Part shown: positions 3,697-36,400 of the stretch, piece after piece
Position numbering within the stretch: position 1 is the stretch's first letter
Layout: every line of letters starts with the position of its first letter
NCBI GenBank assembly: GCA_026712715.1
Contig: JAPOPW010000012.1
Span: 1-64,000, forward strand
Source of the DNA: Immundisolibacterales bacterium
Lineage (GTDB): Bacteria > Pseudomonadota > Gammaproteobacteria > HK1
DNA length: 64,000 nucleotides
Direction of reading: 5' to 3'
Made by a program: the position numbers and the translations under genes
The notes under the pieces: generated by a model
Told to the model about the DNA's origin: nothing
The model's input: only the letters and a program-made list of their open reading frames with translations
The model's database searches: none

Positions 3697-5460
3697 TTGA
3701 AACGCGGACTCGAGACGCTCGTCGCGAGTGCTGTCAGCACGCTTCACGCCCGCGGAGAGCTCGATATCGAGACGGCGCCGCCGCTCGTGATCGAACGCAC
3801 GCGCGATCCGCGCCACGGCGATTTCGCTTGCCCGGTCGCGCTCGGTCTGGCCCGCGCCGCGCGCTGCAATCCGCGTGAGCTCGCGGCGCGCATCGTCGCC
3901 GCGCTTCCGGAGGCGGGCGACGTCGAGTCGACTTCCGTGGCCGGCCCGGGCTTCATCAACTTCAAGATGGCGAACGGGGCCTTTCAGCGGATCGCGGGGG
4001 AGATCGTCGGCTCCGAGTCTCCCTGGGGCCGGTCGCGTCGCCATGCGGGCAAGCGGGTCCAGGTGGAGTTCGTGTCCGTCAACCCGACCGGCCCGCTGCA
4101 CGTCGGCCACGGTCGCGGCGCGGCCTGCGGCGCGGCGCTCGCCAACCTCCTCGAAGCGGTGGGCTGGGAGGTCGAGCGCGAGTATTACGTGAACGACGCC
4201 GGACGCCAGATGGACATCCTCGCCCTCAGCGTGTGGCTGCGCTATCTCGAGGTCATCGACTGGCCGGAACGTCCGGCATTCCCCGAAGGCGGCTACCGGG
4301 GCGAGTACATTCGCGACGTCGCCACCGAGCTCGCCCGGGAGCATGACACCCGGCTCGGACGGGACCTTGTCGAAGGTCCGCCCGGCGGCGACGAGGATGC
4401 GCGTCTCGACGCGCTGATCGCGGGCGCCCGGGCGGCTCTTGGAGAGGACGGTTTCGCCGTCGTGGCCGACGCCGTGCTCGAGGAGATCCTGGCCGGGATC
4501 CGCGAAGACCTCGCCGGTTTCGGGGTCGTGTTCGACCGGTGGTTCTCCGAGCGCTCGCTCGTCGACACCGGGGCGCTCGCGCGCGTGCTCGATATCCTGC
4601 GCGAGCGCGGGGAAGCCTACGAGCGCGACGGCGCGCTCTGGTTCAGCGCCACCGCGCACGGGGACGAGAAGGACCGCGTGCTGGTGCGGGCCAACGGTCA
4701 GAGCACCTACTTCGCCTCGGATGTCGCCTATCACCTCGACAAGTTCGAGCGCGGATTCGATCGCGTCATCGACGTCTGGGGGGCGGACCACCACGGGTAC
4801 ATCGCGCGGGTGAAGGGCGCGATCCGGGCCCTCGGGAGGAACGCGGACGCTTTCGAGGTGGTGATCGTGCAGCTCGCGAGCCTCTGGCGCGGGCAGGACC
4901 GGGTCGCCATGTCGACCCGGTCCGGCGAGTTCGTGACGTTGCGCGATCTCGTCGACGAAGTGGGGGCGGATGCCGCGCGCTTCTTCTACGTCCTGCGCAA
5001 GAGCGACCAGCACCTCGACTTCGATCTGGAGCTCGCGAAGTCCCGCTCCACCGAGAACCCCGTGTACTACGTGCAGTATGCGCACGCGCGCATCGCGAGC
5101 GTCCTGCGACGCGCCGGGGAAGAAGGAGGGAACGGGAACGCGAATGCCGGCGCGGGCGCGGAGCGCTCCGGGCTCGGGCACCTGAGCCGGCTGACCGAGG
5201 ACCACGAGCTCGGGCTGCTGAAGACCCTGTCCCGCTACCCGGAGGTCGTCGAAGCGGCGGCCGAGGCCTGCGAGCCCCACCAGATCGCCCACTACCTTCG
5301 CGACCTCGCGAACGCGTTCCACAGCTTCTACAACTCGCACACGATTCTCGCCGGCGAGGCGGACCTGAGGAGTGCCCGCCTGACCCTGGTCGAGGCGACC
5401 CGCCGGGTCATCGCGGACGGGCTCGGACTCATCGGCGTGAGCGCGCCGTCGACCATGTAG
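3697..5460 (+). CDS. argS: Arginyl-tRNA synthetase
   Basis: Class I aminoacyl-tRNA synthetase charging tRNA-Arg in the cytoplasm. The ORF-track entry begins far upstream inside priA; the real protein starts close to the TTG encoding LKRGLETLV, giving 587 residues, the usual ArgS length. An ATG at 3610 overlapping the priA stop would add 29 residues that do not look like ArgS. Visible features are the N-terminal additional domain ([14 protein letters not shown]), the HIGH-type motif HVGHGRGAA (about 134-142), the degenerate KMSKS counterpart [10 protein letters not shown] (about 403), as is common in ArgS, and the C-terminal DALR anticodon-binding domain ([17 protein letters not shown] onward). 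The start codon choice is the main uncertainty. Confidence 0.94.
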
Positions 5461-5471
5461 GGCGGACGAAA

Positions 5472-6059
5472 GTGGCGAAGAGAAGCCGGCCAATCCGTGC
5501 CACGCGCCGAAACGGGGGGTTCCTTCGAGGCCTCGCCCTCGGCCTTGCGGTTGCCACCGTCGTCCAGCTCCACCATGCCGGGCTCCCGGACTGGCTCGGC
5601 GGCGGCCCGGAAGACGTCGCGGAGCCGCGCAGTCCGATCGAGCCGTCGAACACGAACTTCGACTTCTACCGCCTTCTTCCCAAGACGGAGGTCCAGGTCG
5701 ACGAGTCGGACCTGCCCGGCACGGCGCCGGCGCCTGCACAGGCGCCCCCCCCGGCGCAGCGGACGGTGAACCGGCCGGCGGCGGGGAGCGGGCGGGAAAC
5801 GATAGCGTCCGCTCCTGCGCGCGGCGGCTTTCGGGTTCAGGTCGGTTCGTTCCGCTCCCGGAACGAGGCGGATCGGCTGCGTGCGTCGCTCGCCCTCAAC
5901 GGCTTCGAGTCACGCATCCTGACGCGGGACACCGCGGACGGAACCTGGCACCGGGTGATGCTCGGCCCGTTCAGCGGCCGGGCGGCCGCCGAGGAAGCGA
6001 AGGCGCGGGTATCCGCCTCGCGAGGAATCGACGCGCGTATCGTTCCGGAAGAGAGCTGA
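5472..6059 (+). CDS. SPOR-domain inner-membrane protein (FtsN-like)
   Basis: Small bitopic membrane protein of 195 residues. A basic N-terminus (KRSRPIRATRR) precedes one transmembrane segment (FLRGLALGLAVATVVQ), a Pro/Ala-rich periplasmic linker and a C-terminal SPOR domain (GGFRVQVGSFRSRNEADRL ... HRVMLGPFSGRAAAEEAKARV) of about 75 residues. SPOR domains bind denuded glycan strands at division septa, so a cell-division or septal role is likely. The position directly after argS, 11 bp away, matches the argS-SPOR/ftsN-like arrangement common in proteobacteria. The GTG start is chosen because the upstream ORF extension is a shadow of argS. It might be FtsN or another SPOR protein; the short, poorly conserved linker does not allow a decision. 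Confidence 0.88.
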   Translation: MAKRSRPIRATRRNGGFLRGLALGLAVATVVQLHHAGLPDWLGGGPEDVAEPRSPIEPSNTNFDFYRLLPKTEVQVDESDLPGTAPAPAQAPPPAQRTVNRPAAGSGRETIASAPARGGFRVQVGSFRSRNEADRLRASLALNGFESRILTRDTADGTWHRVMLGPFSGRAAAEEAKARVSASRGIDARIVPEES

Positions 6060-6061
6060 CG

Positions 6062-6135
6062 TGGAGCGGGTGAAGGGAATCGAACCCTCGTATTCAGCTT
6101 GGGAAGCTGATGTTCTACCATTGAACTACACCCGC
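6062..6135 (-). tRNA. glyU: tRNA-Gly, anticodon CCC
   Basis: Reading the minus strand gives a full cloverleaf: acceptor GCGGGTG/CACCCGC, D arm with TTCAATGGTAGAA, anticodon stem TCAGC/GCTGA with loop TTCCCAA (anticodon CCC), and T arm GAGGGTTCGATTCCCTT. The 3' CCA is encoded (tgg on the plus strand at 6062-6064). The sequence is close to the E. coli glyU type as I remember it. It lies convergent to the SPOR gene. Confidence 0.97.
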
Positions 6136-6145
6136 TTAAGCTTCC

Positions 6146-6173
6146 ATTCTACCCCGCGTTTCGACGAATGAAA
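6146..6173 (-). promoter_or_regulatory. Putative sigma-70 promoter for tRNA-Gly
   Basis: On the minus strand TTTCAT and TAGAAT are separated by 16 bases in an AT-richer stretch, placing a transcription start a few bases before the tRNA 5' end. The -10 matches the consensus well and the -35 weakly. Inference from sequence only. Confidence 0.45.
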
Positions 6174-6238
6174 GCACGTCTTCGCAGGTGCTTGCGGGCA
6201 CCGCGGGCCGCAGCCGCGAAACCTCGGACAGGAACAAG

Positions 6239-6448
6239 GTGAGCACCGTGCAGATCGTTCTCAACGGGCAACCCCGTGGGCTCGAGCCCGGCACGACCCT
6301 CGCCGGGCTGGTCGCATCCCTCGACCTCGGCGCAAGGCGCATGGCGGTCGAGATCAACGAGGAAGTGATCCCGCGCAGCGAGTACCCCGTGCACGTGCTG
6401 GGAGACGGCGACCGGGTGGAAATCGTCCATGCCGTGGGGGGCGGCTGA
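6239..6448 (+). CDS. thiS: Sulfur carrier protein ThiS
   Basis: Ubiquitin-fold sulfur carrier for thiamine thiazole synthesis. The 69-residue protein starts MSTVQIVLNGQPRGL and ends in VGGG, supplying the C-terminal Gly-Gly that becomes the thiocarboxylate. The GTG start at 6239 has aggaaca at a fitting distance and gives the usual family length; the ATG at 6188 in the ORF track adds an unsupported 17 residues. It lies 36 bp before thiG. No thiF or thiO is in the window, so the activating enzyme must be encoded elsewhere. I saw no TPP riboswitch signature in the short upstream gap. Confidence 0.93.
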   Translation: MSTVQIVLNGQPRGLEPGTTLAGLVASLDLGARRMAVEINEEVIPRSEYPVHVLGDGDRVEIVHAVGGG

Positions 6449-6484
6449 CGAACCGCGCCTGGAAGATAGCAAGAGAACCGCACC

Positions 6485-7294
6485 ATGAACCCAGCCGATC
6501 CCAAGTCCGCCTCGGGGGAAGACCCGTTCATCGTCGCCGGACGGCATTTCAAGTCCCGTTTGCTCGTCGGCACTGGAAAGTACGAGAGCCTCGAGCAGAC
6601 CCGGGACGCCATCGAGACGAGCGGAGCGGAAGTCGTCACCGTCGCGATCCGCCGCACCAACATCGGTCAGGAGCCCGGCGAGCCGAACCTTCTCGACTTT
6701 CTTCCCCGCGATCGGTTCACCATCCTGCCCAACACGGCAGGTTGCCATGACGCGGTGACGGCGGTTCGCACCTGCCGGCTGTCCCGTGAGCTCCTCGACG
6801 GCGCCAACCTCGTGAAGCTCGAGGTGCTGGCGGAAGACAAGACCCTGCTTCCGAACGTAACCGAGACCCTGGTCGCGGCCGAACGGCTCGTGGCGGACGG
6901 CTTCGACGTCATGGTGTACACGAACGACGATCCGGTCATGGCAAGGCGGTTGGAGGAGATCGGGTGCGTGAGCGTGATGCCGCTCGCGGCGCCCATCGGC
7001 TCCGGCCTCGGCATCTGCAACCCCTGGAACATTCTCACCATCCTGGAGGAGGCGAAGGTACCCATCGTGGTCGACGCGGGGGTGGGGACCGCTTCCGATG
7101 CCGCGGTGGCAATGGAACTCGGGTGCGACGGAGTGCTGATGAACACCGCGATTGCGGCCGCCCGCAACCCCGTGCTCATGGCGTCGGCCATGAAGCACGC
7201 GATCGTCGCCGGCCGCGAGGCCTTTCGGGCCGGCCGGATGCCGCGCCGCCGCTTCGCCAGCGCTTCCTCGCCGGTGGAGGGAGCGATCGCCTGA
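6485..7294 (+). CDS. thiG: Thiazole synthase ThiG
   Basis: Forms the thiazole phosphate moiety of thiamine from 1-deoxy-D-xylulose 5-phosphate, dehydroglycine and ThiS thiocarboxylate. The 269-residue TIM barrel shows [21 protein letters not shown] at the start, the Schiff-base lysine region [17 protein letters not shown] and the phosphate-binding stretch [21 protein letters not shown]. It directly follows thiS. Its stop codon overlaps the likely start of trmB. Confidence 0.97.
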
Positions 7295-8007
7295 ACACCC
7301 GGGACGGCATCCGTTCCTGGGTGCTGCGCGCGGGTCGGATCACGCCCGGACAGAAGCGGGCCATCGAACGCCACTGGCCACGCTACGGACTCGGCCCGCC
7401 GCCGGATTCTCAGGTGCCCCGGGGCGAGTTTCGGGTCATCGAACCGGTCGTGGAGTTCGGTCGCCGGGCGCCCCTGGTCGTCGAGATCGGTTTCGGAAGG
7501 GGGGATGCTCTTCTCGACGCGGCAGCCGAATTCTCCGACCGGGACTTCATCGGAATCGAGGTCCACGCCCCCGGAATCGGGTACCTTCTGGCCCGGGTTC
7601 ACGATCGCGGCATCGAGAATGTCCGGGTCCTCTTCGGAGATGCCCGCGAGGCCCTCGGTCAGCGCTTCCGCGCGGGTTCTCTGGAGGAGGTCCGGATCTT
7701 CTTTCCGGACCCCTGGCCGAAGGCGAGGCACTTCAAGCGGCGACTGGTGCAGCCGGGGTTCGCGGCGCTCGCCGCATCGAGGCTGCGGCCGGGGGGCCGC
7801 ATCCTCGCCGCCACCGACGACGAGGGCTACGCGATGCAGATGCTGTCCGTGTTCGAGGCCGTCGATTCGCTTGCGAACGTCGCAGGCAGCGGCGCGTTCT
7901 GGCCCGGCCCGAGCGGTCGGAGCCACACCCGTTTCGAGGAGCGCGGCCACCGGCTGGGGTCCACGATTCGGGACCTTCGGTTCGAGCGGCCGCGAGCAAC
8001 CGAGTGA
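7291..8007 (+). CDS. trmB: tRNA (guanine-N7-)-methyltransferase TrmB
   Basis: SAM-dependent enzyme making m7G46 in tRNA. Visible are the SAM-binding VEIGFGRGD (about 64-72), IGIEVHAPG, the diagnostic FPDPWPK (about 138) and the C-terminal [12 protein letters not shown]. The conserved N-terminal block [17 protein letters not shown] starts upstream of the first GTG (7321). I therefore favour a CTG initiation at 7291 that overlaps the thiG stop and has ggaggg about 9 bases upstream. GTG 7321 would remove part of the conserved block. The next gene, cysQ, overlaps its stop by 4 bp, so thiS-thiG-trmB-cysQ look co-transcribed. Confidence 0.92.
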
Positions 8008-30220: not shown

Positions 30221-31417
30221 ATGCGCATCAAGCTACCGATCGCCCTCGGGCTCGCTACCTGCCTGGTCGTGGCGGCCTTCGGCCCCGCCCAGGGTGCCGA
30301 CAAGGTCAAGATCGGCTTCGTGACGACCCTCACCACCGGAGCTGGCGTGATCGGACGCGACATGAAGGACGCGGTCGACCTCGCCGTCGAGCACATCGGG
30401 GGAAAGATGGCCGGAATCGACGTCGAAGTCCGCTACGAGGACGACGGCTTCAAGCCCGAGACCGGCAAGCAGAAGGCGGACAAGCTGGTCAAGGCGGACG
30501 ACGTCGACTTCGTGGCCGGGTTCATCTGGTCGCACGTCCTCCTCGCATCCCGCAAGTCCGTGCTGGACGCGGGAAAATTCCTCATCAGCTCGAACGCCGG
30601 TCCCTCCCAGCTCGCCGGAAAGCTCTGTCACGAGAACTTCTTCTCCACCTCCTGGCAGAACGACCAGACGCCGATGGCGATGGGCGAGGTCCTCAACCGC
30701 AAGGGGGTGAAGAAGCTATACGTCATGGCCCCGAACTACGCGGCCGGAAAGAACATGGTGGCCGGGGTCGAGCGCACCTTCACCGGAGAGGTCGTCGGCA
30801 AGGACATGACGAAGTGGGGCAAGGATGCACAGCTCGACTTCTCGGCCGAGCTCGCCAAGGCCCGCGCGTCGGGGGCGGACGGGATCTTCGTCTTCTATCC
30901 CGGACGCGCCGGTCCCGCCTTCATCAAGCAGTACGAGCAGGCGGGTCTGGTGAACGAGATCCCGCTCTACACCGTGTTCACGGTGGATTCCATCTCCCTG
31001 CCGCTCCTGCAGAAGGCGGGGCTCAAGGGCGTGCTCGGCTCGCTCATGACCCAGTTCTGGGTCCCCGACCTCGACGTTCCGCAGAACCACGAGTTCGTGT
31101 CCGCGTTCCGCGAGAAGCACGGCCGCTACCCGTCGTTCTACGCGGCGCAGTCCTACGACACGATCTTCTTCATCAAGAGCGCGGTCGAGGCGGTGAACGG
31201 CGACCTCGAGGACATGGACGGCCTGCGGGCGGCGATGGCCGCGGCGGACTACCCCTCCGTCCGTGGCCCGTACACCTACGGGAACAATCACTTCCCGATC
31301 CAGAACTTCTACCTCCGCGAGGTGGTCGAGGACGCGGACGGGAACTGGACCACCCGGACGGTCGAAACGGTGTACACCGCGCACCAGGACAGCTACGCGA
31401 GCGAGTGCAAGATGTAG
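30221..31417 (+). CDS. Branched-chain amino acid-type ABC transporter substrate-binding protein (LivK-like)
   Basis: Periplasmic type I binding protein of 398 residues. The signal peptide MRIKLPIALGLATCLVVAAFGPAQG precedes the mature start ADKVKIGFVTTLTTGAGVIGRD. Other signatures are VRYEDDGFKPETGKQKADKLV, FISSNAGPS-like LISSNAGPSQLAG and ARASGADGIFVFYPGRAGPAFIKQYEQAG. The ATG has aaggagg eight bases upstream. The true substrate (Leu/Ile/Val, amides, aromatic acids, urea) cannot be told from sequence; the enoyl-CoA hydratase and CoA transferase nearby would fit carboxylic or aromatic acids. It begins the livKHM-[cyclase]-livGF cluster. Confidence 0.9.
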   Translation: MRIKLPIALGLATCLVVAAFGPAQGADKVKIGFVTTLTTGAGVIGRDMKDAVDLAVEHIGGKMAGIDVEVRYEDDGFKPETGKQKADKLVKADDVDFVAGFIWSHVLLASRKSVLDAGKFLISSNAGPSQLAGKLCHENFFSTSWQNDQTPMAMGEVLNRKGVKKLYVMAPNYAAGKNMVAGVERTFTGEVVGKDMTKWGKDAQLDFSAELAKARASGADGIFVFYPGRAGPAFIKQYEQAGLVNEIPLYTVFTVDSISLPLLQKAGLKGVLGSLMTQFWVPDLDVPQNHEFVSAFREKHGRYPSFYAAQSYDTIFFIKSAVEAVNGDLEDMDGLRAAMAAADYPSVRGPYTYGNNHFPIQNFYLREVVEDADGNWTTRTVETVYTAHQDSYASECKM

Positions 31418-31549: not shown

Positions 31550-32473
31550 ATGGATGCAACCCTCGTCCTCACGCAGCTCCTGAACGGGCTCCAGCTCGGA
31601 GTGCTGCTCTTCCTGCTGGCCGCGGGCCTCACCCTGGTCTTCGGGATCATGGACTGCGTGAACCTCGCGCACGGTTCGCTCTACATGGCGGGCGCGTTCG
31701 TGTGCGCCACCGTGACCCTGGCCACCGGCTCGTTCCTGCTCGGAATCCTGGCCGCTCTCCCCGCCGCGTTCGCGATTGGAGTGGTGGTGGAGGTTCTCGT
31801 CATCCGCCACCTCTACCAGCGCGACCACCTCGACCAGGTGCTTGCGACGTTCGGCCTCATCCTGGTATTCGACACCCTGGTTCACCTGATCTGGGGACCG
31901 GAGGGTCTGAGCTTCCCGCTGCCGCCGATCCTGAACGGCCAGGTGACGCTCCCTGGAGGTGTCGTCTTCCCCATCTATCGCCTGCTCATCATCGCGGCCG
32001 GCCTTTCCGTCGCCCTTGCCATGTGGGTCGTGATCGCGCGCACCCGGACCGGCATGCTGGTCCGCGCGGGCGCCTCGAATCCGCGCCTCGTGAATGCGCT
32101 CGGCGTCAACATCCAGGCCCTGTTCACCCTCGTCTTCGGCACAGGCGCCGCGCTTGCGGGTCTCGCGGGTCTGCTCATCGCCCCGATTACCGAGGCGAGC
32201 ATCGGCATGGGCAACGAGATTCTCATCGTCGCCTTCGTGGTGATCATCATCGGGGGGATCGGATCGGTTCGAGGAGCCTTCGTCGCCGCTCTCATCGTGG
32301 GGCTCATCGATACGCTGGGGCGATCGTTCCTGGATGGGGCGATGAAGCTGGTGCTCTCCAACCAGGCGGCGGAGACCGCGGCGCCCGCGGTTTCCGCCAT
32401 GCTCATCTACATTCTGATGGCCGCCATCCTCTATTTCCGGCCGCAGGGACTGTTCCCGCCCCGGGTGCGCTGA
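31550..32473 (+). CDS. livH: Branched-chain amino acid-type ABC transporter permease LivH
   Basis: Inner-membrane permease of 307 residues with eight predicted transmembrane segments. LNGLQLGVLLFLLAAGLTLVFGIMDCVNLAHGSLYMAGAF and the EAA-like VIIIGGIGSVRGAFVAALIVGLIDTLG are diagnostic of LivH. Its stop overlaps the livM ATG by one base. The name denotes family only; the substrate is unknown. Confidence 0.92.
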   Translation: MDATLVLTQLLNGLQLGVLLFLLAAGLTLVFGIMDCVNLAHGSLYMAGAFVCATVTLATGSFLLGILAALPAAFAIGVVVEVLVIRHLYQRDHLDQVLATFGLILVFDTLVHLIWGPEGLSFPLPPILNGQVTLPGGVVFPIYRLLIIAAGLSVALAMWVVIARTRTGMLVRAGASNPRLVNALGVNIQALFTLVFGTGAALAGLAGLLIAPITEASIGMGNEILIVAFVVIIIGGIGSVRGAFVAALIVGLIDTLGRSFLDGAMKLVLSNQAAETAAPAVSAMLIYILMAAILYFRPQGLFPPRVR

Positions 32474-33528
32474 TGGCACCCCCCGGCGTCGCCTCCGCGC
32501 TCGCGCGGCTCCGCCGCGGGAGCCGGGACCGGCGCTCGCTCGCCGGCGCACTCGCCTTCGCGCTCCTCGCCGCGGCGCCGCTGCTCACCGCCTGGCTCGA
32601 CCAGCCCTTCTACCTCGATCTCGCGACCCGCATCCTCATCCTCGCCACCGCCGCCGCAAGCCTCAACCTCATCCTCGGCTACGGGGGGATGATCAGCTTC
32701 GGGCACTCGGCCTATCTCGGTATCGGCGCCTACGCGGTCGGGATTCCCGCCTACTACGGCGAGTACTCCGCCTGGCTCCAGCTTCCCCTCGCCCTCGGCG
32801 CAAGCGCCCTCTTCGCCTTCGTCACCGGCCTCGTGAGCCTTCGCACCCGCGGGGTGTACTTCATCATGATCACCCTCGCGTTCGCGCAGATGGTCTACTT
32901 CGCGTTCGTCAGCATCGAGGAGTACGGCGGCGACGACGGGCTGGTCATCGATCTCCGGAGCGAGACGGGCGGGCTCGTCGATCTCGAGAGCAACCCGCAG
33001 CTCTACTACGTATCGCTGGCGGTCCTCGCCCTCGTGACGTACGTCGTTCGCCGGATCGTGCGATCGCGCTTCGGGCTCGTCGTGCGGGGCTCGCGCGACA
33101 ACGACGCCCGCATGCAGTCTCTTGGCTACAACACGTTCCGGTACCGCCTCGCGTGCTATGTCCTCGCGGGCACCATTGCAGGGTTCGCGGGCTTCCTCCT
33201 CGGGAACTTCACGAGCTTCATCAGCCCGGAGATGATGGACTGGACCCGCTCCGGCGAACTCATCTTCATGGTCGTGCTCGGCGGGGCGGGGAGCGCCCTC
33301 GGCCCGCTGTTCGGCGCAGCCGCGTTCATCCTGCTCGAGGAGTTCCTGTCCGGATTCAGCATCTACTGGCCGCTCGCGTTCGGCCTCATCCTCATCCTCG
33401 TCGTCCTGTTCTATCGCGGGGGACTCGATGGCCTGCTCGACCGGGGCGCGAGGACGACGAGGTCCACCGGTTCGTCGAACCCTTCGAGCCGGGAGCCTGA
33501 ACGGTGCTCGACCGACCCTGCCTCGTAG
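32473..33528 (+). CDS. livM: Branched-chain amino acid-type ABC transporter permease LivM
   Basis: Second permease, 351 residues, multiple transmembrane segments. Signatures are ASLNLILGYGGMISFGHSAYLGIGAYAVG, GSRDNDARMQSLGYN and VVLGGAGSALGPLFGAAAFILLEEFL. The conserved part ends at FYRGGLDGLLDRG. The last 30 residues (RTTRSTGSSNPSSREP...) are low in hydrophobicity and run antisense through the 3' end of the cyclase gene, 118 bp of convergent overlap. Either they are translated or an earlier stop was lost. Confidence 0.91.
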   Translation: MAPPGVASALARLRRGSRDRRSLAGALAFALLAAAPLLTAWLDQPFYLDLATRILILATAAASLNLILGYGGMISFGHSAYLGIGAYAVGIPAYYGEYSAWLQLPLALGASALFAFVTGLVSLRTRGVYFIMITLAFAQMVYFAFVSIEEYGGDDGLVIDLRSETGGLVDLESNPQLYYVSLAVLALVTYVVRRIVRSRFGLVVRGSRDNDARMQSLGYNTFRYRLACYVLAGTIAGFAGFLLGNFTSFISPEMMDWTRSGELIFMVVLGGAGSALGPLFGAAAFILLEEFLSGFSIYWPLAFGLILILVVLFYRGGLDGLLDRGARTTRSTGSSNPSSREPERCSTDPAS

Positions 33529-34799
33529 CCCTGGCGGACCGCCGCCTCGAACGTGGCCCGGTCCGTCAGAGCGTCCACCGCCTGCGTCCGGTTGGCCTTC
33601 TCGAGCTTGGCGGCCTGGTTGACCGGATCACCGATGACGGTGTACTCGAGCCGGTCTCCGTCACCCACCGCACCGAACACGATGGGTCCGAACGCGGCCG
33701 CCGCGTTCACCCGATGCACGGGCCGGCCTTCGGCGGCGCGGCGGCGAGTCCACCCGGCGGCCGCCTCCATCACCGCGTCGACCGCGCGCAGCGCGTCCGC
33801 GGCCGCCGACCCCGAAGGCCGAACGGCGCCAAACGTCGCCATGATCCCGTCGCCCATGAACTTGTCGATGGTTCCGCCGTGGGCCTGGATGGCCGGAACG
33901 AGGGCATGTTGATAGTCGGTCAGCATCGCGATCACCTCGCCGGGCGTTACCGTGTGCGAGAACCGGGTGAATCCGCGGATGTCGCAGAACACGACCGCGG
34001 CGTCGCACGCCATCGCGGTTCCGGCTTCGATCCTCTGCTGCGAGGCGGTGATCCGGCGGGCGACCTCGGGCGAGAAGAAGCGGGCGAGGTCACGCGCCGC
34101 CGCGCTCTCGGTGGCGGAGCGCACGACGAGGCGCCGGGCCTGGTTCATCGCCGCCGCGAGAACCACGGTCACCACGAGAATGGCGATGATCTTGTCCGTT
34201 TCGGCCCCGACGAGAATCGAGTTGGAGGTCATGTACTCGACGTAGTCCCGGGTAATCATCTCGTGGCCGTCGGCCGCGTAGACGGCGTACGCGGTGAGCG
34301 CCGCCCACCCCGCGGCGGCCGTGATCCCGGCCGCCACCACGTAGCGGGCCCGAAAGCTCAGCACCCGAAGTCCGATGAATATGAAGACGTAGATCATCGT
34401 GGGGGCCTTGAGGTAGAACGACGGCGGCTGCCCGTACTCGATGTGGAAGGACCAGATGAGGGCGAGCAGGAGCGCCATGTCGACGACGATGGACAGGTAC
34501 AGCACGAACGGGCCGAGGCGCTCCCGCCACGAGAGGTACAGCCGCACGAGGGTGAACAGCGCGTACCCGCCGAGCACGATCGGTACGGGATCGACGATGT
34601 CGGGATCGCGTACGGCGGCCGGCTGGTCGGGCTGAATGGCGGCGAGGAGCATGAAGAACACGACCACGCCGAGCTGAAGCACACTGATGAGCCGCTGGCT
34701 CTCGATCTCCTGGCGTCGGATTGCCGCCTGCACGCGTTCCGGCAGCTTGTCCTCCGCTTCCCGGTCGCTCCGGCGCCGCCGGACCCAGCTCGAGATCAT
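33411..34799 (-). CDS. Membrane class III adenylate/guanylate cyclase
   Basis: 462-residue protein. The N-terminal half has six predicted transmembrane helices (LGVVVFFMLLAAI, PIVLGGYALFTLVRLYL, LYLSIVVDMALLLALIWSF, IYVFIFIGLRVLSF, YVVAAGITAAAGWAALTAYAVY, IIAILVVTVVLAAAM), then a linker (ARDLARFFSPEVARRI) and a class III cyclase domain. Catalytic residues are visible: metal Asp in VVFCDIRGFTRFSH, Lys and second metal Asp in IDKFMGDGIMATFG, and IGDPVNQAAKLEKANR. The usual transition-state Arg after the Asn is Lys here, which occurs in some bacterial cyclases. It produces cAMP or cGMP. It is antisense inside the liv operon, between livM and livG. Confidence 0.93.
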   Translation of the reverse strand: MISSWVRRRRSDREAEDKLPERVQAAIRRQEIESQRLISVLQLGVVVFFMLLAAIQPDQPAAVRDPDIVDPVPIVLGGYALFTLVRLYLSWRERLGPFVLYLSIVVDMALLLALIWSFHIEYGQPPSFYLKAPTMIYVFIFIGLRVLSFRARYVVAAGITAAAGWAALTAYAVYAADGHEMITRDYVEYMTSNSILVGAETDKIIAILVVTVVLAAAMNQARRLVVRSATESAAARDLARFFSPEVARRITASQQRIEAGTAMACDAAVVFCDIRGFTRFSHTVTPGEVIAMLTDYQHALVPAIQAHGGTIDKFMGDGIMATFGAVRPSGSAAADALRAVDAVMEAAAGWTRRRAAEGRPVHRVNAAAAFGPIVFGAVGDGDRLEYTVIGDPVNQAAKLEKANRTQAVDALTDRATFEAAVRQGYEAGSVEHRSGSRLEGFDEPVDLVVLAPRSSRPSSPPR

Positions 34800-34843
34800 C
34801 GTCCGCCCTCCCGTTTCGACCCGCTCCGGGCGGGACCCGGAGC

Positions 34844-35650
34844 ATGAAGGATCCGCTCCTTCGCGTTCGGGGCCTCACCCGCCGGTTCGGCGGGGTGGTC
34901 GCGTCCGACGGCATCGACCTCGACGTGTTCGAGCACGAGGCCCACGCCATCATCGGCCCCAATGGAGCGGGGAAGACGACCTTCATTGCCCAGGTTGCGG
35001 GCTTCACCCTCCCCGACGCCGGATCGATCGAGCTCGCGGGTCGGGAGATCACCCGCCTTCCCGCTCACCGCCGGGCCCGGCTCGGTCTCGCCCGATCGTT
35101 TCAGATAACGAGCATCTTCGCCACGCTCACCGTCCTCGAGAACGCGGCGCTCGCGGTGCAGGCCGCGGCCGGGCACGCGTATCGGATGTGGGGTGAAGCC
35201 CTGGGCGACCGGGAGCTTCGGAGCACGGCCCTCGAATGCCTCGCACGGGTGGGCCTCGGCGACCGCGCGAAGGACACGGCCGGAGACCTCTCGCACGGCG
35301 AACACCGCCAGCTCGAGATCGCGATGGCGCTCGCGACCCGGCCGCGCCTGCTGCTGCTCGACGAGCCGATGGCGGGAATGGGGCCGGAGGAGTCGGTCCG
35401 GATGGTGTCGATCCTGCGGGATCTGCGGCGCGAGCGGACCCTGCTGCTCGTCGAGCACGACATGGATGCGGTGTTCGCGATTGCGGACCGAATCACGGTC
35501 CTCGTCGGCGGAAGGGTCGTGGCCTCCGGCGGGCCGGAGGAGGTCCGGAGCGATCCGGAGGTACGACGGGCCTATCTCGGCGAGGACTTCCCGGATTCCG
35601 GGAACGGCGACGGAAACGAGGACGGGCACGGGAGCTCGAGCGGGCCGTGA
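34844..35650 (+). CDS. livG: Branched-chain amino acid-type ABC transporter ATP-binding protein LivG
   Basis: ATPase subunit of 268 residues. Walker A GPNGAGKTT, Q-loop region ARSFQITSIFATLTVLEN, signature LSHGEHRQLEIAMAL (an SHGE variant common in this family), Walker B LLLLDEPMAGMGPEES and switch His in LLVEHDMDAVFAIAD. A polar tail (SGNGDGNEDGHGSSSGP) is unusual. Its start is 44 bp from the start of the divergent cyclase gene, so the two share a short upstream region and livG may have a promoter of its own. Confidence 0.93.
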   Translation: MKDPLLRVRGLTRRFGGVVASDGIDLDVFEHEAHAIIGPNGAGKTTFIAQVAGFTLPDAGSIELAGREITRLPAHRRARLGLARSFQITSIFATLTVLENAALAVQAAAGHAYRMWGEALGDRELRSTALECLARVGLGDRAKDTAGDLSHGEHRQLEIAMALATRPRLLLLDEPMAGMGPEESVRMVSILRDLRRERTLLLVEHDMDAVFAIADRITVLVGGRVVASGGPEEVRSDPEVRRAYLGEDFPDSGNGDGNEDGHGSSSGP

Positions 35651-35671: not shown

Positions 35672-36400
35672 ATGGGTGACTCCCGGGCGTCCTCGTCCCT
35701 TCTCGAGGTCCGTGGACTCGCCGCCGCCTATGGGCGAAGCCAGGTGCTCTTCGGGGTCGATCTCGAGGTCGGCGCCGGCGAGATGACCTCCCTTCTCGGC
35801 CGCAACGGAATGGGCAAGACCACGACCGTGTACGCGATCATGGGCCTCGTTCCCCCGCTCGACGGCTCGATCCGCATGGCGGGCCGCGAGCTCTCCGGCG
35901 AGCCGCCGTGGCGGATCGGGCAGGCGGGCATCGGCCTCGTTCCCGAAGCTCGCCAGGTGTTTCCCAACCTGAGCACCCACGAGAACCTGATCGCGACCGC
36001 GCGCATGCGTCGCGTGGGTGCCGGAGGATGGAACACCGAGGGGGTCTACGATCTGTTCCCCCCCCTCGCGGCGCGCCGCAACGTGCCCGGAGCGTTGCTG
36101 TCGGGAGGCGAGCAGCAGATGCTGTCCATCGGACGCGCCCTCATGACCAATCCCGATCTGCTCATACTCGACGAGGCGACGGAGGGCCTGGCGCCTCTCG
36201 TGCGTCGCGAGATCTGGGCCTGCCTTGCCCGTCTCAAGGCGGCCGGCCAGTCGATCCTCATCATCGACAAGAACATCGACGACCTCACCCGCATTGCGGA
36301 TCGGCACTTCATACTCGAGAAGGGCCGCATCGTGTGGAGCGGGACGAGCCGGGAGCTTCGCGCCAGCCCGGATGCGATCACGCGGCACATCGGGATATGA
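35672..36400 (+). CDS. livF: Branched-chain amino acid-type ABC transporter ATP-binding protein LivF
   Basis: Second ATPase subunit, 242 residues. Walker A GRNGMGKTT, LVPEARQVFPNLSTHENL Q-loop region, signature LSGGEQQMLSIGRAL, Walker B LLILDEATEGLAPLVRREIW and IIDKNIDDLTRIAD in the switch position (Asp-Lys-Asn rather than the usual His-containing sequence). It follows livG by 21 bp and closes the transporter operon. Confidence 0.93.
   Translation: MGDSRASSSLLEVRGLAAAYGRSQVLFGVDLEVGAGEMTSLLGRNGMGKTTTVYAIMGLVPPLDGSIRMAGRELSGEPPWRIGQAGIGLVPEARQVFPNLSTHENLIATARMRRVGAGGWNTEGVYDLFPPLAARRNVPGALLSGGEQQMLSIGRALMTNPDLLILDEATEGLAPLVRREIWACLARLKAAGQSILIIDKNIDDLTRIADRHFILEKGRIVWSGTSRELRASPDAITRHIGI

Follow-up and report, generated by a model that had tools for sequence, protein, structure and literature searches.

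Beltz, Bassler and Schultz (2016) grouped as cluster 3 a set of 42 class IIIb cyclases with six transmembrane helices (6TM) and no HAMP domain, mainly alphaproteobacterial, none of which had been examined experimentally, and argued that such 6TM anchors are receptors (PMC4821796). Rv1625c/Cya, represented by Protein Data Bank (PDB) entry 7yzk, is a 6TM adenylate cyclase of class IIIa. Operons that enclose an opposite-strand gene have been reviewed as noncontiguous operons, including menE-menC-MW1733-ytkD-MW1731 of S. aureus (PMC7154746), and 83 candidates have been reported in Dickeya dadantii (PMC9239193). The locus described here, which resembles each of these systems in part, lies in a window of 64,000 nucleotides (contig JAPOPW010000012.1, positions 1 to 64,000) from the gammaproteobacterium Immundisolibacterales bacterium.

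In the window, open reading frames and Pfam matches reveal a livKHM-livGF operon split by an intact gene for a six-helix class III cyclase on the minus strand (Table 1). The coordinates bear out the preliminary description, in which the cyclase gene was placed antisense between livM and livG, with its 3′ end overlapping livM and 44 bp between its start and livG; the overlap measures 118 nt. In gene order, and in each of its five component families, the operon corresponds to the LivKHMGF/HAAT-type (liv-type) ABC importers: the Pfam families are the correct ones for a substrate-binding protein, a pair of permeases and a pair of ATPases. The operon differs from these importers in being split by an antisense gene, in a novel, antisense-derived tail of livM, and in its scores, which for the window transporter proteins fall under the cut-off of every NCBIfam LivM, LivG, LivF, LivH and urea-transporter model; by these equivalog and subfamily cut-offs it lies outside the E. 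coli-type LivKHMGF transporters. The earlier term 'branched-chain-type' therefore holds at the superfamily level, by Pfam, but not for the specific models. The window genome carries approximately 20 liv-type ABC transporter operons, and among those inspected only the window operon is interrupted by this cyclase.

Table 1 Features of the interrupted liv locus, in window coordinates.
Feature	Position	Strand	Basis
livK-type substrate-binding protein	about 30221-31417	+	PF13458 (Peripla_BP_6), E=8e-73
livH-type permease	31550-32473	+	PF02653 (BPD_transp_2), E=3e-35
livM-type permease	32473-33528	+	PF02653 (BPD_transp_2), E=1e-39; start overlaps livH stop
Cyclase, 462 aa	33411-34799	-	PF00211 (Guanylate_cyc), E=7e-9
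Tail-to-tail overlap of livM and cyclase, 118 nt	33411-33528	both	Coordinates; wobble positions of both frames coincide
44-bp gap between divergent cyclase and livG starts	34800-34843		Three-genome alignment
livG-type ATPase	34844-35650	+	PF00005 (ABC_tran), PF12399 (BCA_ABC_TP_C)
livF-type ATPase	35672-36400	+	PF00005 (ABC_tran)

The cyclase comprises a membrane domain (residues ~21-220), a coupling helix (197-241) and a catalytic domain (~262-452). Its AlphaFold2 model (mean pLDDT of 85.6) shows six membrane helices, the long helix 197-241 and a catalytic fold. The sole Pfam domain, above the gathering score, is the catalytic Guanylate_cyc domain (residues 267-408), and the six modelled helices, with no HAMP domain in Pfam, give the architecture of the class IIIb 6TM cyclases without HAMP. 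The metal-binding aspartates D273 and D317, which mark class III, are invariant across 91 homologue sequences, and the substrate residues K313 and T387 are those of class IIIb. The transition-state pair of class IIIb, an Asn and an Arg, is only half present: N394 is found, and a Lys (K398) stands in place of the Arg, a substitution typical of the family (80 of the 91 sequences). We use the label 'IIIb-like' because Lys398 occupies the usual Arg position, and from these residues the gene probably encodes a 6TM class IIIb-like adenylate cyclase, a candidate producer of cAMP.

The best PDB fold match of the model (Foldseek) is Rv1625c/Cya, which aligns over both the membrane and catalytic parts, albeit with 18% identity, a whole-chain TM-score of 0.42-0.50 and IIIb rather than IIIa residues in the window cyclase. 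The cyclase can be likened, by description, to cluster 3, with which it shares a six-helix anchor joined directly to the catalytic domain, a Thr at the Asp position and the lack of HAMP; its family, like cluster 3, is chiefly alphaproteobacterial. It departs from cluster 3 in the family's Lys at the transition-state Arg position and in its gammaproteobacterial host.

The two further genomes of the genus show the same nested gene order, and 'genus-wide' refers below to these three species, the window genome included. Identities between the window proteins and those of the two other genomes are 81-94% for the cyclase, LivH, LivM, LivG and LivF. Across the genus genomes the cyclase has a dN/dS of 0.17-0.20, close to the value of livG, and is kept under purifying selection. 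The layout is common to the three species, and the insertion therefore predates their split. In every close uninterrupted relative operon examined, livM is followed directly by livG; the most similar ones belong to a genome of the same class (G374, livM identity of 61%) and to one of the same family (G009, 50%), and nearly all other paralogous liv operons inspected have livG directly after livM. Contiguity of livM and livG is thus the normal state, as previously supposed, and the 'recent insertion' suggested earlier is supported as an insertion, albeit one older than the word 'recent' implies.

The insert is hardly larger than the cyclase open reading frame. The final ~27 codons of livM are read antisense to the 3′ part of the cyclase gene and are missing from the closest livM of an uninterrupted operon (L155). 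Substitutions in the overlap between the genus genomes lie almost only at the third positions common to both frames; the overlap is tolerated because these positions coincide, so that changes tend to be silent in both frames, which also masks any separate selection on the livM tail. Insertion by a mobile element was rejected, as the flanks showed neither conspicuous direct repeats nor element genes, just GC-rich, chance-like repeats.

The usual surroundings of the cyclase were taken from the best 80 of 477 relatives in a genome scan, a set that describes the close family and includes 78 loci outside the genus. Among the 65 informative loci (those of the 78 with at least 3 kb upstream), the gene of an MBL-fold hydrolase (PF12706) is near the cyclase at 44, that of a cNMP-binding protein of 150 residues (CNBD, PF00027) at 19 and that of an ABC exporter-like protein of ~930 residues (PF00664/PF00005) at 19, with at least one of the three at 46. 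Upstream of the cyclase, many Rhodospirillales loci instead carry genes for a response regulator, the MBL hydrolase and, at some of them, a methyltransferase; downstream, a yej-like peptide ABC transporter operon is convergent with the cyclase 3′ end (L037, L039, L041, L042, L045, L065 and others), in several cases within about 70 bp of it. All eight members of the host family that carry the cyclase outside the genus have the exporter, adjoining in seven and, in the eighth (G010), on the cyclase contig at a distance of about 20 kb. One same-family locus was read individually (L173); it gave no MBL match, and an open reading frame at about 4800-5500, between CNBD and cyclase, without a Pfam match, is presumably, from the appearance of its sequence, an HD-type metal-dependent phosphohydrolase. 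In the exporter-like protein (L073:1626-4427 and L189:9816-12491) the nucleotide-binding domain (NBD) appears by eye to be split and degenerate, with the Walker A Lys missing or replaced, and the protein may therefore not be an ordinary ATP-driven exporter.

Presence and absence across genomes also couple the cyclase to the exporter. In the host family, 11 of 17 genomes have a close cyclase homologue, and precisely these 11 have the exporter (Fisher p of 8e-5, kinship ignored). Among 385 Alphaproteobacteria, the exporter is present in 62 of the 70 genomes with the cyclase, versus 67 of the 315 without it (odds ratio of 29, kinship ignored), these 67 showing that the exporter also occurs without this cyclase, and 30 of the 35 cyclase-exporter pairs found on one contig lie within 25 kb. 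Where a cyclase locus lacks the exporter or does not reach it, 27 of 35 such genomes carry the exporter elsewhere; five of the remaining eight are Legionellaceae, and the cyclase can therefore exist without the module. No paper on a cyclase/MBL/CNBD/exporter module was found in the open-access library searched, by which measure the module appears to be undescribed.

In the genus, the MBL, ABC and CNBD genes lie side by side without an adjoining copy of the window cyclase, both in the window genome (contig C63, 58.7-63.1 kb, with the CNBD gene at 62.6-63.1 kb) and in the two others (G001 and G002). In G002 they are at 4.93 Mb and the cyclase is at 2.37 Mb, ~2.5 Mb apart. In the window genome another class III cyclase is encoded at a distance of about 1.3 kb from the three module genes (L189, which spans C63:50000-66000; positions 5672-7474, minus strand); it combines a membrane part with a ferredoxin domain of the 2Fe-2S type (PF00111 and PF00211), in the manner of Beltz cluster 1. 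On the most parsimonious account, the window cyclase was separated from the module or acquired separately, landed in the liv operon, and serves the intact module in trans.

We consider it probable that the cyclase of an MBL/CNBD/ABC exporter-like module was inserted into the liv operon before the three species split, has been kept since, and signals to the module left elsewhere. The family would normally form part of a cyclic-nucleotide module whose other members are an MBL-fold hydrolase, a cNMP-binding protein of a single domain and an ABC exporter-like protein. Prior to the divergence of the three species, a segment barely longer than the cyclase open reading frame would have landed antisense between livM and livG, replacing both the end of livM and its stop codon; the cyclase would then have been retained under purifying selection, and the other three genes would have remained grouped elsewhere in these genomes. 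The 6TM domain would sense a membrane or external cue and thereby set the synthesis of a cNMP, probably cAMP; the messenger would bind the small cNMP-binding protein, which would in turn regulate the exporter-like protein, with the MBL protein as a candidate phosphodiesterase. We infer the cyclic product, its binding by the CNBD and the control of the exporter-like protein from the association of the genes; expression of the cyclase and the phosphodiesterase role are likewise proposed. More tentatively, the 6TM cyclase may be the receptor of an undescribed module widespread in Alphaproteobacteria, in which cAMP gates an ABC exporter-like protein whose NBD is degenerate, accompanied by an MBL-fold phosphodiesterase and a stand-alone cNMP-binding protein; in the genus the sensor, uncoupled and set antisense in a transporter operon, may tie the activity of the module to liv expression.

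The source of the genus cyclase is more finely balanced, and the chances fall slightly short of even that it, perhaps together with MBL and CNBD, was gained horizontally from an alphaproteobacterium rather than relocated from the family's own copy. Its nearest homologues outside the genus, among the best 80 of 477 relatives, are alphaproteobacterial (55-59% identity), and in trees it groups with a few alphaproteobacterial sequences (support of 97/99). The catalytic domain is 54-59% identical to alphaproteobacterial homologues versus 31-36% to same-family copies, and against an alphaproteobacterial query the genus CNBD has 55-58% identity and the family CNBDs 39-45%. However, the membrane domain favours neither group, with similar identities to the two (51-58%, with 51-56% for same-family copies), and AU tests do not reject monophyly of the family, whether for the whole cyclase, for its membrane or catalytic domain taken singly, for the exporter or for the CNBD (p of 0.11-0.28). 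Horizontal transfer is thus suggested by identity and bootstrap values, but not by the AU tests. The same-family cyclases (L008-L015) have a Gln in place of the substrate Lys; given their alike membrane domain and diverged catalytic domain, the catalytic domain was exchanged or diverged rapidly in that lineage, and these proteins may represent a natural swap of the catalytic domain beneath a conserved receptor.

Whereas the insertion proposed above would account for the origin of the layout, a separate reading, which we regard as unlikely, would make the layout itself functional: livKHM-livGF would be transcribed as one unit through the cyclase antisense, with mutual regulation by polymerase collision and RNase III. 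One opposite-strand gene inside an operon fits the published definition and matches the S. aureus example (PMC7154746), such units are numerous in D. dadantii (PMC9239193), no terminator-like site was found in 33300-35000, and the layout is kept genus-wide. Co-transcription and reciprocal regulation were shown for the S. aureus operon and are putative for the window locus. The arrangement is restricted to one genus, a neutral insertion that was retained predicts the same sequence pattern, and livGF could have its own promoter within the 5′ coding region of the cyclase.

It is very improbable that the cyclase senses or reports liv transport through a shared promoter or physical coupling, a functional link that the preliminary description had raised. 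Adjacency is conserved in the three species, but the 44-bp gap is poorly conserved among them except for its ribosome-binding-site-like end at livG, and a consensus scan, a weak test in GC-rich DNA, gave no promoter-like match there; the proposed divergent promoter shared by cyclase and livG accordingly finds no support in alignment or scan. Outside the genus, none of the 78 loci from the best 80 of 477 relatives lies in a liv operon, and livM occurs within the flank at only one of the 65 informative loci. At one of the 78, in the alphaproteobacterium L110, liv genes lie some 2.8 kb away from the cyclase, which is treated as a coincidence because each genome has many liv operons. With the liv permease as a control in the Alphaproteobacteria, the raw association with the cyclase (odds ratio of 7, kinship ignored) is not significant among exporter-positive genomes (p of 0.15) and among exporter-negative ones has a p of 0.05 that rests on eight cyclase genomes, while the cyclase-exporter association persists in both liv strata. 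Most of the raw association thus disappears when the exporter is taken into account, and the cyclase and the liv permease are never close together in the 31 genomes in which their positions were compared. As the preliminary description had asked of an incidental arrangement, in the first half of its refuting condition, relatives carry the cyclase elsewhere and an intact liv operon. The genomic and phylogenetic association that is conserved is with the MBL/CNBD/exporter-like module rather than liv; the placement in the liv operon, although kept in the three sampled species of the genus, has the appearance of an insertion specific to that genus and not of a sign of transport sensing.

That the split operon arose in assembly or binning can be dismissed almost with certainty, for although the window assembly is fragmented (82 contigs, 4.96% estimated contamination), identical junctions recur in the two other genomes with diverged sequence, one of them (G002) a single 5.09-Mb contig.

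Taken alone, the split operon is a peculiarity of one genus and a natural candidate for a noncontiguous operon; the module is the more interesting result. It provides a testable context, in the form of a co-occurring and often linked hydrolase, CNBD and exporter-like protein, for membrane cyclases that in 2016 were called never studied experimentally. Cultured organisms such as Kiloniella or Nitratireductor could serve to test the module, whose partners suggest what the cyclase signal may control.
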